Positions 16,176 through 40,755 of a stretch of DNA of 52,693 nt are shown here, piece by piece (the first letter of the stretch is position 1; each line of letters opens with the position of its first letter). This DNA is from Gemmatimonas sp. (lineage in GTDB: Bacteria; Gemmatimonadota; Gemmatimonadetes; Longimicrobiales; Longimicrobiaceae), in contig WHSP01000014.1 in the NCBI GenBank assembly GCA_009380025.1, positions 1 to 52,693 of the forward strand, given 5' to 3'. The notes below the pieces were generated by a model, which was given only the letters and a program-made list of their open reading frames with translations, did not search any database and was not told the origin of the DNA. The position numbers and the translations under genes are program-made.

Positions 16176-17981
16176 TTGGGCAGTGGCGGTCGGGGGGCGA
16201 GTTTTCCACGCGCTGCGAGGAGAGCACGAGAGCATGGGAGCCCTGGCCCGGTCCCTGAGCGAAGCGGGCGTTCGGACGTGGGGAAGGGCCGCTGGGACCG
16301 CTCTGTGATCTGGGCCATGCTCCGGAATCCGGCCTATATGGGCCAGGCGGCATTCGGCAAGACACGGGTCGGCGATCGGCCCAAGAGGCTCACCCGCCCG
16401 ATGCGCCAGCGGGGAGGGGTCCCGAGCCCGCAACCCGCCGTGGAGGACCGCCCGCCGGAGGAATGGATCGAGATTCCGGTCCCGGCGATCGTGGATGAGA
16501 CCACCTTTGCACTGGCCGCCGAGCAGCTGGAGAGGAATAAGCAATTCGCCCGTCGGAACACGAGGGAGCCCACCCTGCTCCAAGGGCTTCTCGTGTGTCG
16601 TCAGTGCGGGTATGCATATTATCGGTGCTCGACGAAGACCACGAAGCGGAAGATTTACTACTATCGTTGCCTTGGCGCGGACGACTACCGGTGGGAAGGG
16701 GGGCGCGTCTGCTCGAACCGACCAGTCCGACAGGATTATCTCGACGCGGTGGTCTGGGATGCGGTGGTCGAGCTGCTGGCCAATCCGGCGCTGGTGCGCC
16801 AGGAGCTGGACCGGCGCTTGGAGGAGCGGCGTCAGTCGAGCACCAGCCAGAAGCAAAAGGACCGGCTCCTTCGGGAGGTGGCGCGGCATCAAACGGCCGT
16901 CAAACGGCTCATCGAAGCCTATCAGGAGGAGCTGATCTCGATCGAAGAGCTGCGGGCGCGAATCCCCGAGGTTCGCAGCCGGGAGAAGGCGGCATCCGCT
17001 CAGTTGGAAACCCTCGAAGCCCAGCTCATCGACCAACAAGCCTATTTGAAGCTGGCCGAGACCTTGGAATCCTTTCTCACACGCTTGGAACAACGTGCTC
17101 AGAGCCTCTCCATCGAGGAGCGACAAAAGGTGCTGCGCCTCGTGGTCAAGGAAGTCCAGGTCGAGGGTGAACGAGTCGTCATCAAGCACTCCATCGCCCC
17201 TTCGGATGGTGACTCGGCCTCAGGTTATCGATTGCGTGGGGGGAGTGATCAGCCCGCTCCTGGCCAATCTGTACCTGCACTACGTATTCGACCCTGGATC
17301 CAACGGTGGAGGAAGAAGCGGGCGCGCGGCGACGTGATCGTGGTGCGTTTCGCCGACGACTTTGTCGTAGGCTTTGAACATCGAGAGGACGCCGAGCAGT
17401 TTCAGCACGAACTGAAGGAGCGGTTGGCCGAGTTCGCACTGGAACTGCACCCCGAGAAGACGCGGATCCTCGCTTTCGGTCGCACGATCGCGTGGCAATG
17501 GCGTGACCATCGGGGAGAGAAGCCCGGCACGTTCGACTTTCTCGGCTTTACGCACAGTTGCGGGAAAACGAGGAGGGGCAAGTTCATCGTGTTGCGGCGG
17601 ACGATGCGCAAGCGCATGCAGGCCAAGCTCAAGGAGGTGAAGGAGAGTCTTCGGCGCCGCATGTACGATCCCGTCCCGGAGCAAGGTGTCTATTTGCGAG
17701 CGGTAGTCGGTGGGTACATCCGATATCATGGGCTGCCCCTGAACTCGCAAGCGATCAGCATCTTTCGACTCGAAGTGATTCGACTGTGGCGGGCCAGTCT
17801 CGGCCGACGCAGTCAGAAGGGTCGCCTCAGTCGTCGGCGAGTGGATGCCTTAGCCACGCGTTGGCTCCCGCCTGCCCGAATCTGTCACCCCTTCCCTGGG
17901 TACGTTGTGTCGTCTGACCCGAGACAGGAGCCCGGTGCGGTAGGACCGCACGCCGGGATCTGTGGAGGGGGCGGCGGGTGA
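16176..17981 (+). pseudogene. Serine recombinase C-terminal part fused to a group II intron RT C-terminal part
   Basis: One open frame made of two unrelated mobile-element genes. Residues from about 16278 to 17235 are the recombinase domain and zinc ribbon of a large serine recombinase: RWDRSVIWAMLRNPAYMGQA, a zinc ribbon with CRQCGYAYY and a later VCSNRPV, then a coiled-coil and VLRLVVKEVQVEGERVVIKH. The segment before 16278 ([19 protein letters not shown]) is in another frame, so a base is missing there. The catalytic resolvase domain is absent. At about 17240 the sequence switches to a reverse transcriptase. Neither part can be active. Confidence 0.75.
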
Positions 17982-19840: not shown

Positions 19841-20037
19841 CCACACTCTCTCGACCCCGTAGTCGCGGAACATTCGCCCGCGCGACCTCGGAAAATTCGG
19901 CGGGCGCCTGGTTACCCTTGAGTGCAGAACTGCAGCCCGGCGTGCTGACCACGCACCCGTCTCTAAAGGCCAACCCGGCGACTTTCGCCCTTTCGTCGCC
20001 CCGAGTCTCTCGATGCTCTTGACTCGTCCGCCGCCGT

Positions 20038-20073
20038 GTGCTAAATAGCCAGCATATGCTAGAAACTTAGCAC
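20038..20073 (+). promoter_or_regulatory. Nested dyad operator upstream of the HEAT-repeat gene
   Basis: A 36-bp element symmetric about one centre: outer arms GTGCTAA (20038-20044) and TTAGCAC (20067-20073), and a perfect inner palindrome AGCATATGCT (20051-20060). It can also be read as two 16-bp sites, TGCTAAATAGCCAGCA and TGCTAGAAACTTAGCA, 18 bp apart centre to centre. TTGACT (20019-20024) lies just upstream, with TAAATA at 20042-20047 as a possible -10, so the dyad would cover the promoter. This is a good candidate for a two-dimer repressor site. Confidence 0.6.
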
Positions 20074-20092: not shown

Positions 20093-21448
20093 ATGCGGGT
20101 TTGGAAGGTGGTGCTTGGAGTGGGTGCGCTGCTGCCTGGCGTCGTGGTGTGGGCGGCGCCGGCAGGTAGTGCGATCGCGTCACAAGTGGACGAGGCGTCG
20201 CATGCGCGTCTGATGTTGGAGTCGGCGCGGGGAACGTCGCCGGTCATGTGCCGGCTGGCGGCACGCACACTGGAGTCGCAGCGGGGCTCGTTGCCGTGGG
20301 TAGGGGTTGTGGCGCTTCAGGGGCCAGATGAGGATGCCGCTACGTGGGCTGCATCTGCGCGGCCGGGCGGGGCGACAACGCCTGTCCTACTGGCGGGACT
20401 GGAGGCCGGGGATGCGTGTGTGCGACAGGTCGCGTCGCGGCTGCTCGGCCGGTCGGAGGATGAGTCGGCACTGGTCGGGCTGCTCGCTGCGCTCGAGTCG
20501 GTTTCGCCGTTGACGCGGGAGGCGGGGGCGGTGGCGTTGGGACTAGGAGAGTGGAGGCGGGCGCTGCCGGCGCTGTTGGATCGGCTCGGCGACGCGGCGG
20601 TGGCTGTGCGAGCGGCAGCCGCTTGGGCGTTGGGAGAGTTGGAGCAGGAGGACGTAGTCGAGGAGCTTGCGCGGGTGCTGCGGGAAGATCCGGAGGAGGA
20701 GGTCCGCGTGGCAGCGGCGCAGGCGCTAGGCCGGATCGAAGGCGCGCGTGCGGCCGCTGCGCTGCGGACGGCTTTGGATGATTCTAGCGTCCGGGTCCGG
20801 CGTGCTGTGGTGTGGGCGCTTGGCGAGACCGAGGAGCACCAATCGGTGGGAGGGCTGACAGGTGCGCTGAACGACGCGGACGAGGGAGTTCGGGAGACAG
20901 CTGCCTGGGGTCTGGGTCAGATCGAGTCGGCGGACGCGGTGCCCGCGTTGGGAAATACCCTTCGTTTCGAGGAGAGTATTTCGGTAAGGGAAACGGCTGC
21001 TTGGGCGCTGGGCCAAATCGAGGCGACGTCTGCCGTGGAGTACCTGGGCGCAGCCTTGTCGGACGAGAGCGTGCGGGTACGGCGCATGGCGGCGTGGTCC
21101 ACGGGCGAGATCGAGCCCAGCCGCGCACCTGAGGCGCTGATCGGCGCACTCGAGGACGTCGATCCAGGCGTTCGACGCGCCGCCGCCTGGGCGCTCGGCC
21201 AGATCGAGGATGCGGGTGCGGCGCCGGCCCTCGGCGACGCGCTCGGTGACGCGGATGCGGATGTCCGTGCTGCGGCGCTATGGGCGCTCGGGGGAATGGA
21301 TGGGTCTGCGGCGAGCGAGGCGCTGGTGCGGGCGCTGAGCGACGAGGACGCACAGGTACGGGTCGCGGCAGCACGCGCACTGAGCGGTCAGAACCGAGGC
21401 CCGTGGCCATGGCCGAGGCCCAGGCCGCGGCCATTCCCGAACCCGTAG
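20093..21448 (+). CDS. Secreted HEAT-repeat protein
   Basis: Exported scaffold of 451 residues. A signal peptide (VVLGVGALLPGVVVWAAPAG) is followed by about 100 non-repeat residues, then eleven HEAT/PBS-lyase-like units of about 31 residues, recognised by helix-B motifs such as VRAAAAWALGELE, VRRAVVWALGETE and VRRAAAWALGQIE. The C-terminus is a short Trp/Arg/Pro tail. AGGAGG lies 9 bp before ATG 20093. HEAT arrays bind proteins; no enzyme motif is present. In related bacteria such genes often sit beside BlaI/M56-peptidase regulators, but none is adjacent here; the upstream dyad suggests a trans-acting repressor. Confidence 0.88.
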   Translation: MRVWKVVLGVGALLPGVVVWAAPAGSAIASQVDEASHARLMLESARGTSPVMCRLAARTLESQRGSLPWVGVVALQGPDEDAATWAASARPGGATTPVLLAGLEAGDACVRQVASRLLGRSEDESALVGLLAALESVSPLTREAGAVALGLGEWRRALPALLDRLGDAAVAVRAAAAWALGELEQEDVVEELARVLREDPEEEVRVAAAQALGRIEGARAAAALRTALDDSSVRVRRAVVWALGETEEHQSVGGLTGALNDADEGVRETAAWGLGQIESADAVPALGNTLRFEESISVRETAAWALGQIEATSAVEYLGAALSDESVRVRRMAAWSTGEIEPSRAPEALIGALEDVDPGVRRAAAWALGQIEDAGAAPALGDALGDADADVRAAALWALGGMDGSAASEALVRALSDEDAQVRVAAARALSGQNRGPWPWPRPRPRPFPNP

Positions 21449-39360: not shown

Positions 39361-40755
39361 GTGTCGTCCGATTCGTCGCCGGCTGGTTTCACTCGGCCGG
39401 CGCCACCGGTGGGAGGGGTCCTGGCGGGCGACCGCAATGGGTGGCCAAAGTGCAGGAGACCGGTCGGCTGGTCGGTGTTCCCACCGCGCGGGGCACCATT
39501 CGACGCACACCAGTCGTCCCCCGCGTCCTTGCTACCGCCGCTGTCGCGCTTCTGCCTGCTTGTACCGGGCGGCGCTCTTGGGCAGACCCCTCCGGAGGAC
39601 GAGCGACAACCCCCCGAGGTTGCCCCACCGGTGGAGGTGGTGGCCGACCAGGTCCCGATCACTCGGGACGCGAATGGGCATCCGACCATCCGCGCTTTCC
39701 GCGTCAGCGGCCCCATCGAGGTCGACGGCGACCTGAACGAGCCTTTCTACGGGGCGACGCCACCGATCGACGATCTGATCCAGGCGGTCCCGGTTGCGCG
39801 AGGGGTGCCTTCGGAGCGAACGGAAGTTTGGATTGGGTTCGATGATGCGAATCTCTACGTTGCCGCCCGGGTATGGGACTCCCACGGCGAGGCGGGATGG
39901 ATCGCAAACGAGATGCGTCGGGACTCGTTCCAGCTCCGCGCCAACGATTCGTTCGGGATCTACTTCGACACCTATCGCGACCGACGGAACTCGATTGGGT
40001 TCTTCATCAACCCGATCGGCGGCTTCGCCGATGTGCAGATCACCGATGAGGCGGTCCCAAACTTCGACTGGAACCCGGTCTGGAGCGTGAGCACGGGCCG
40101 GTTCGACGGTGGGTGGACAGTCGAGATGGCGGTCCCCTTCAAATCACTCCGTTACGGGCCCGGTTTGGAGCAGATCTGGGGGATTCAGATCCGCCGCTCG
40201 GTTCTGCGTGACAACGAGTGGAGCTATCTGACGCCCGTGCCGATCCAGGCGGCCGGGACTGGGTCGAACGCCGTCTTCAGAGTGTCGTCCTACGGGGATC
40301 TGGTCGGGCTCGAGACGCCTCCACTGGGGCGCAACCTCGAAGTGAAGCCGTACGTGACGTCACGGCTCAGTAGCGACCTGGTCGTCGATCCTGCTGTCGA
40401 GAACGACTTCGAGGCGGACGGGGGCCTCGACGTCAAGTATGCCTTGACGCAGAATCTGACGCTCGATCTGACGGTCAACACCGACTTTGCGCAGGTCGAG
40501 GTGGACGAGCAGCAGGTGAATCTCACCCGCTTCAATCTCTTCTTTCCGGAAAGCGCGGTTTCTTCCTGGAAGGAAGGGGGGTCTACGAGTTCGGGGTCGG
40601 CCGGACGGGTTCGGGTGGCCCGGGTGGCGGCGTTGGCCAGGCGCCCACCCTCTTCTACTCCCGGCGGATCGGGCTCCAGGGCAGCGCCCCCGTGCAGGTT
40701 CTCGGTGGCGGGCGGCTCACAGGCAAAGTTGGCTCGTTCGACGTCGGCCTTCTGA
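39361..40755 (+). CDS. CBM9/DUF5916 outer-membrane protein, part 1
   Basis: N-terminal part of a surface protein with a CBM9-like domain (residues about 115-290: IRAFRVSGPIEVDGDLNEPF, WIGFDDANLYVAARVWDSHG, MAVPFKSLRYGPG) followed by a DUF5916 barrel. The start is unclear: the best signal peptide (VPRVLATAAVALLPAC) is in another frame between 39500 and 39575, so another base may be missing near 39570; ATG 39336 could then be the start. Near 40550-40552 one A is missing, and the family sequence KRGFFLEGRGVYEFGV continues in the next frame. Role and ligand unknown; it is thought to act at the cell surface. Confidence 0.78.
   Translation: MSSDSSPAGFTRPAPPVGGVLAGDRNGWPKCRRPVGWSVFPPRGAPFDAHQSSPASLLPPLSRFCLLVPGGALGQTPPEDERQPPEVAPPVEVVADQVPITRDANGHPTIRAFRVSGPIEVDGDLNEPFYGATPPIDDLIQAVPVARGVPSERTEVWIGFDDANLYVAARVWDSHGEAGWIANEMRRDSFQLRANDSFGIYFDTYRDRRNSIGFFINPIGGFADVQITDEAVPNFDWNPVWSVSTGRFDGGWTVEMAVPFKSLRYGPGLEQIWGIQIRRSVLRDNEWSYLTPVPIQAAGTGSNAVFRVSSYGDLVGLETPPLGRNLEVKPYVTSRLSSDLVVDPAVENDFEADGGLDVKYALTQNLTLDLTVNTDFAQVEVDEQQVNLTRFNLFFPESAVSSWKEGGSTSSGSAGRVRVARVAALARRPPSSTPGGSGSRAAPPCRFSVAGGSQAKLARSTSAF

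Follow-up and report, generated by a model that had tools for sequence, protein, structure and literature searches.

Tandem palindromes over the promoter of a HEAT-repeat gene in Gemmatimonadota as a predicted operator of a BlaI-family repressor

Promoter architecture of the HEAT-repeat gene

The window, i.e., the whole stretch of DNA analysed here (52,693 nucleotides), represents contig C55 of a Gemmatimonas sp. genome of 5.02 Mb, a fragmented assembly of 478 contigs in which the assignment of contigs to one genome depends on binning. It contains a gene for a 451-aa HEAT-repeat protein with a hydrophobic, signal-peptide-like N-terminal segment (sequence was the only basis for calling gene starts and signal peptides); the nearest named relatives of this protein come mostly from Gemmatimonadetes assemblies. 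The gene and the elements preceding it are:

20019..20024, + strand: -35 hexamer TTGACT; TTGAC lies exactly 15 nt 5′ of the first TGCTA, as at three other promoters of the predicted regulon in this genome
20039..20054, no strand: putative operator site A, TGCTAAATAGCCAGCA, with one mismatch to TGCTA-N6-TAGCA
20042..20047, + strand: probable -10 hexamer TAAATA inside site A, in its inferred position after a 17-nt spacer from TTGACT
20057..20072, no strand: putative operator site B, TGCTAGAAACTTAGCA, an exact TGCTA-N6-TAGCA and one of four in the genome
20082..20086, + strand: ribosome-binding site GGAGG, 6 nt 5′ of the ATG
20093..21448, + strand: target gene, HEAT-repeat protein (PF13646 HEAT_2, E 8e-73)

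A first-pass annotation had described outer arms and an inner dyad sharing one centre between TTGACT and the start codon, and all of these elements are found exactly as written: GTGCTAA (20038-20044), AGCATATGCT (20051-20060) and TTAGCAC (20067-20073) have a common centre, downstream of the hexamer and upstream of the ATG at 20093. The overall 36-bp symmetry arises from two neighbouring 16-bp palindromes with centres 18 bp apart, which can be summarized as TGCTA-N6-yAGCA. Where the annotation had offered both a nested 36-bp dyad and paired 16-bp sites, the latter description stands: the functional units are the two 16-bp sites, and a single 36-bp dyad acting as the unit is ruled out, as the 16-bp units also occur as single copies, in tandem and, at one locus, as an array of five. 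Sites A and B are the sole matches to TGCTA-N6-TAGCA with at most one mismatch in the window; dinucleotide shuffles of the window contain 0.26 matches on average, and two or more were obtained in 1 of 100 shuffles. Site A covers the -10 region of the TTGACT-N17-TAAATA promoter, whose TAAATA matches TATAAT only in part and has TGC immediately before it, the configuration of an extended -10 element. No PF03965 (BlaI) gene is present on the window's contig, in keeping with the initial remark that no regulator gene is adjacent. At 16176-17981 (+), the window also holds a 601-aa open frame with the unusual combination of serine-recombinase domains (Recombinase, zinc ribbon) and a partial reverse-transcriptase domain (PF00078).

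Recurrence of the sites in the genome and among relatives

A search of the genome for TGCTA and TAGCA separated by 0 to 12 nt returned five matches, four of them with exactly N6. The fifth, with N12, precedes another blaI gene on contig C112 and is better read as TACGG-N6-CCGTA. The genome scan that the first-pass annotation had proposed thus places the exact sites at a blaI-M56 operon, at two genes for HEAT proteins and at one for a DUF5916 outer-membrane protein:

C36:11055: at the start of the blaI gene
C55:20057: site B, before the window HEAT gene
C432:14377: before the second HEAT gene, with a one-mismatch partner 19 bp away
C445:12092: before the DUF5916 outer-membrane gene

A search for the composite TTGAC-N14-16-TGCT-N8-AGCA likewise yields exactly four hits genome-wide, each with N15; they lie at the promoters of the blaI-M56(HEAT) operon, the window HEAT gene, the second HEAT gene (C432) and the DUF5916 gene (C445). 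The same arrangement therefore marks the putative repressor's own promoter and those of the two HEAT genes and the DUF5916 gene as predicted targets, and because this fixed promoter-operator geometry singles out four promoters alone in this genome, the targets are cleanly predictable. The remaining one-mismatch sites lack the TTGAC-N14-16 spacing, except for the tandem partners and a site at C36:8477. The latter lies in front of a DUF5916 gene that follows the blaI operon, and was counted as weak. Three genes in the genome match the window HEAT protein (the window gene, the C36 fusion and the C432 gene), and the operator lies upstream of all three. DUF5916 genes number about a dozen and the full composite occurs at only one of them, so that the regulon does not extend to every member of the DUF5916 family. 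A further DUF5916 match in the window (40336-40551, +) carries no regulon operator. The DUF5916 gene downstream of blaI-M56 on C36 (L001:888-2397) is split over overlapping frames (888-1949 and 1891-2397), which suggests a frameshift or an assembly error.

In related bacteria, exact TGCTA-N6-TAGCA was found 55 times, in 17 of the 41 genomes searched, and the N5 variant twice. For nine exact sites TTGAC stands 15 nt upstream, and for five the distance is 12 nt, with 0.036 expected per distance. When 44 loci from relatives were retrieved for inspection of their gene neighbourhoods, the directly downstream gene was blaI, usually followed by M56, in 17 and DUF5916 in 11, together 28 of the 44. The 16 others, which precede other genes or none that could be named, are possible further targets. 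Downstream genes other than blaI and DUF5916 encode secreted peptidases (S9, M13, M16, M61, met-zincin), a DsbD-like protein, amino-acid permease/MoxR pairs and a TPR protein. At three loci not near blaI (L067, L096, L102), TGCTA-N6-TAGCA lies near or between a gene for a MoxR-type ATPase and a second gene, an amino-acid permease in two cases and AceK in one. Among 146 genomes drawn from the order, TTGAC-N14-16-TGCTA-N7-AGCA is present in 17, nearly all belonging to the window's family and one sister family. A relative of the same genus (G001) has neither a HEAT match nor a site, so that gene and site are absent together, and only two weak PF03965 matches were found in it (best E 5e-4).

Where the HEAT genes of relatives are closest (L233-L239), blaI is followed by M56 and then by HEAT repeats; several of these loci have another HEAT stretch beyond a stop codon. 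Six of the seven blaI promoters bear two or three sites, e.g., TTGAC-N15-TGCTAGAATTCCAGCA-CGG-TGCTAGATTTCCAGCA. The hybrid TGCTA/CAGCA form of site A also occurs at blaI promoters of relatives. The earlier proposal that HEAT genes of related bacteria accompany BlaI/M56 is thereby borne out, the nearest ones being part of blaI-M56 operons that carry these tandem sites. On the simplest reading of these sequences, the window HEAT gene, standing apart from the blaI operon, would have either retained or acquired a copy of that operon's operator. The dyad is thus neither unique in the genome nor missing from orthologous promoters, the two findings that the first-pass annotation had set against its own proposal. 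One relative carries five 16-bp operators with a 19-bp period upstream of its blaI-M56 operon (L073:3001-3092, G019:C425), one exact and four with TGCCA left halves.

The candidate repressor and its M56 partner

The genome contains eight PF03965 matches. One of them, the BlaI protein encoded on C36 (G000:C36:10639-11019; PF03965 E 6e-24), gives profile matches to MecI and BlaI structures with E values of about 1e-5 to 1e-6. Its operon also encodes a 696-aa M56 protein (PF05569 E 1e-31) with four hydrophobic segments. A HELAH motif (residue 244) lies in the stretch separating segments 3 and 4, and the HEAT repeats follow segment 4. No penicillin-binding domain was detected by Pfam in the M56 protein, which has the HEAT repeats at its C-terminus instead; if the protein has the topology of BlaR1, this HEAT part should be periplasmic and stand where the penicillin sensor would be.

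The operators upstream of BlaI paralogs in these bacteria differ within one 16-bp frame (TACTA, TGCTA, TGCTG, TACGG, TGCCA and TACA types). An arginine at one position of the recognition helix (YSAVR-like) is found in 40 of 40 BlaI proteins with TGC-type operators versus 0 of 47 others. As the 40 proteins constitute one clade, the pattern shows kinship and not an independent residue-base code; a code pairing the SAVR-helix arginine with G at operator position 2 is not claimed, since the tree holds only one independent change, and it is further weakened by S. aureus MecI, which has arginine at the aligned position. The helix of the TGC-type clade occurs only in C36 BlaI among the aligned BlaI proteins of this genome, and C36 BlaI is, from its sequence, most likely the repressor of the window operator. 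The eight PF03965 matches and a 16-bp frame common to BlaI proteins of different clades could favor binding of the tandem site by a different regulator, i.e., another BlaI paralog of the genome or an unrelated factor. We consider this improbable, as the other paralogs have differing helices and upstream motifs, e.g., TACGG-N6-CCGTA on C112, and, in relatives, the promoters of a single BlaI clade carry the TGCTA sites.

The classical operator core TACANNTGTA (TACA/TGTA) is absent from sites A and B, which have TGCTA/yAGCA; the TACA core is present at other BlaI paralogs of relatives. C36 BlaI also lacks, in its C-terminal part, the N-F dipeptide at which MecI is cleaved (within LVLNFVEKE), the aligned region being MVTLLRMSDARM. 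With neither the core nor the dipeptide, the mechanism of release may differ from that of the classical system.

Proposed regulon and comparison with known systems

The sites and their distribution, together with promoter geometry and gene content, make it very probable that the element is a tandem operator for a repressor of the BlaI family, with C36 BlaI as the likeliest candidate, through which the HEAT gene and the regulon would be repressed. The BlaI/MecI-type paired-dyad operator that had initially been suggested is supported at the sequence level by recurrence at blaI-M56, HEAT and DUF5916 promoters. Two BlaI dimers would occupy sites A and B, covering the early transcribed region as well as the -10 region, and would thereby keep the secreted HEAT-repeat gene from being transcribed. 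The repressor would likewise silence its own blaI-M56(HEAT) operon, the second HEAT gene (C432) and the DUF5916 outer-membrane gene (C445). A cell-envelope signal, sensed through the predicted periplasmic HEAT domain, would lead the M56 protease to inactivate BlaI, and the whole set would be induced.

The imperfect promoter hexamers, with no consensus promoter match found here, might instead be taken to indicate activation, the bound protein recruiting or positioning RNA polymerase. Such a role is very unlikely, since the sites lie over the -10 and early transcribed region and not upstream of -35, and blaI's own promoter is arranged likewise. Least credible of all is a palindrome or a hairpin in the 5′ leader RNA that has no DNA-binding partner: any dyad can fold as RNA and palindromes of this length arise by chance in large genomes, but the 55-to-2 preference for N6 over N5, the association with blaI and DUF5916 promoters, the fixed TTGAC spacing and the overlap of the site with the promoter here and elsewhere, much of it at or before the transcription start, speak against both, and the spacing and distribution rule out chance.

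BlaI/BlaR1 is known mainly as a switch for penicillin resistance. The system proposed here shares with BlaI/MecI and BlaR1/MecR1 of Staphylococcus and Bacillus (PF03965 with PF05569) the winged-helix repressor family, the adjoining M56 membrane protease, dyad operators over promoters and autoregulation, the last being predicted here from the sites. It differs in having TGCTA/TAGCA half-sites rather than the TACA/TGTA core, in lacking the N-F cleavage dipeptide, in bearing a HEAT domain at the position of the BlaR1 penicillin sensor, and in its predicted targets, which are HEAT and DUF5916 genes whereas that of BlaI/MecI is beta-lactamase. Judged by sequence, with members of both protein families, it is a variant of BlaI/BlaR1; no link to beta-lactams or penicillin resistance is visible in this analysis. 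BlaI of Clostridium thermocellum provides a parallel, as it controls small autoregulated regulons through two pairs of inverted repeats per promoter, and its binding to the non-classical half-sites GTCTAT and GACTAT has been shown by DAP-seq and EMSA (PMC8457756). The two systems have in common two sites per promoter, a small autoregulated regulon and non-classical half-sites; they differ in phylum, half-site, spacing and target genes, and the one described here is predicted from sequence. The BlaI-like copper repressors CopR/CopY also use a 16-base operator, RNYKACANNTGTMRNY, often with two copies per promoter (PMC7253601). In contrast to the present system, they are under metal control via CXC motifs, recognize a KACA core and have no M56 partner.

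A wider picture, in which our belief and our doubt are about equal, is that of a non-beta-lactam BlaI/M56 branch in Gemmatimonadota with a periplasmic HEAT sensor. Through TGCTA-N6-TAGCA operators, this branch would control DUF5916 outer-membrane proteins and secreted HEAT proteins similar to the sensor domain, as well as secreted peptidases in certain relatives. By sharing the ligand of the sensor, the secreted HEAT protein may exert feedback on it; sister BlaI paralogs would each have evolved their own half-site within the common 16-bp frame, which would keep parallel pathways apart. No description of a BlaI regulon in Gemmatimonadota was found in the open literature searched, which does not prove that none exists. 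A BlaI/M56 module with another operator, and with a HEAT domain in place of the sensor, seems to govern small regulons of the cell envelope in a phylum that has received little study. The regulon also provides a hint, open to testing, as to when the cell makes DUF5916 outer-membrane proteins and secreted HEAT proteins. The BlaI paralogs with their distinct half-sites constitute a natural set for learning how repressors choose their DNA. In a sister BlaI clade (L180-L183, L190, L192, L193, L197, L202, L240), a near-invariant palindrome, TGCTGAATATTCAGCA, lies upstream.
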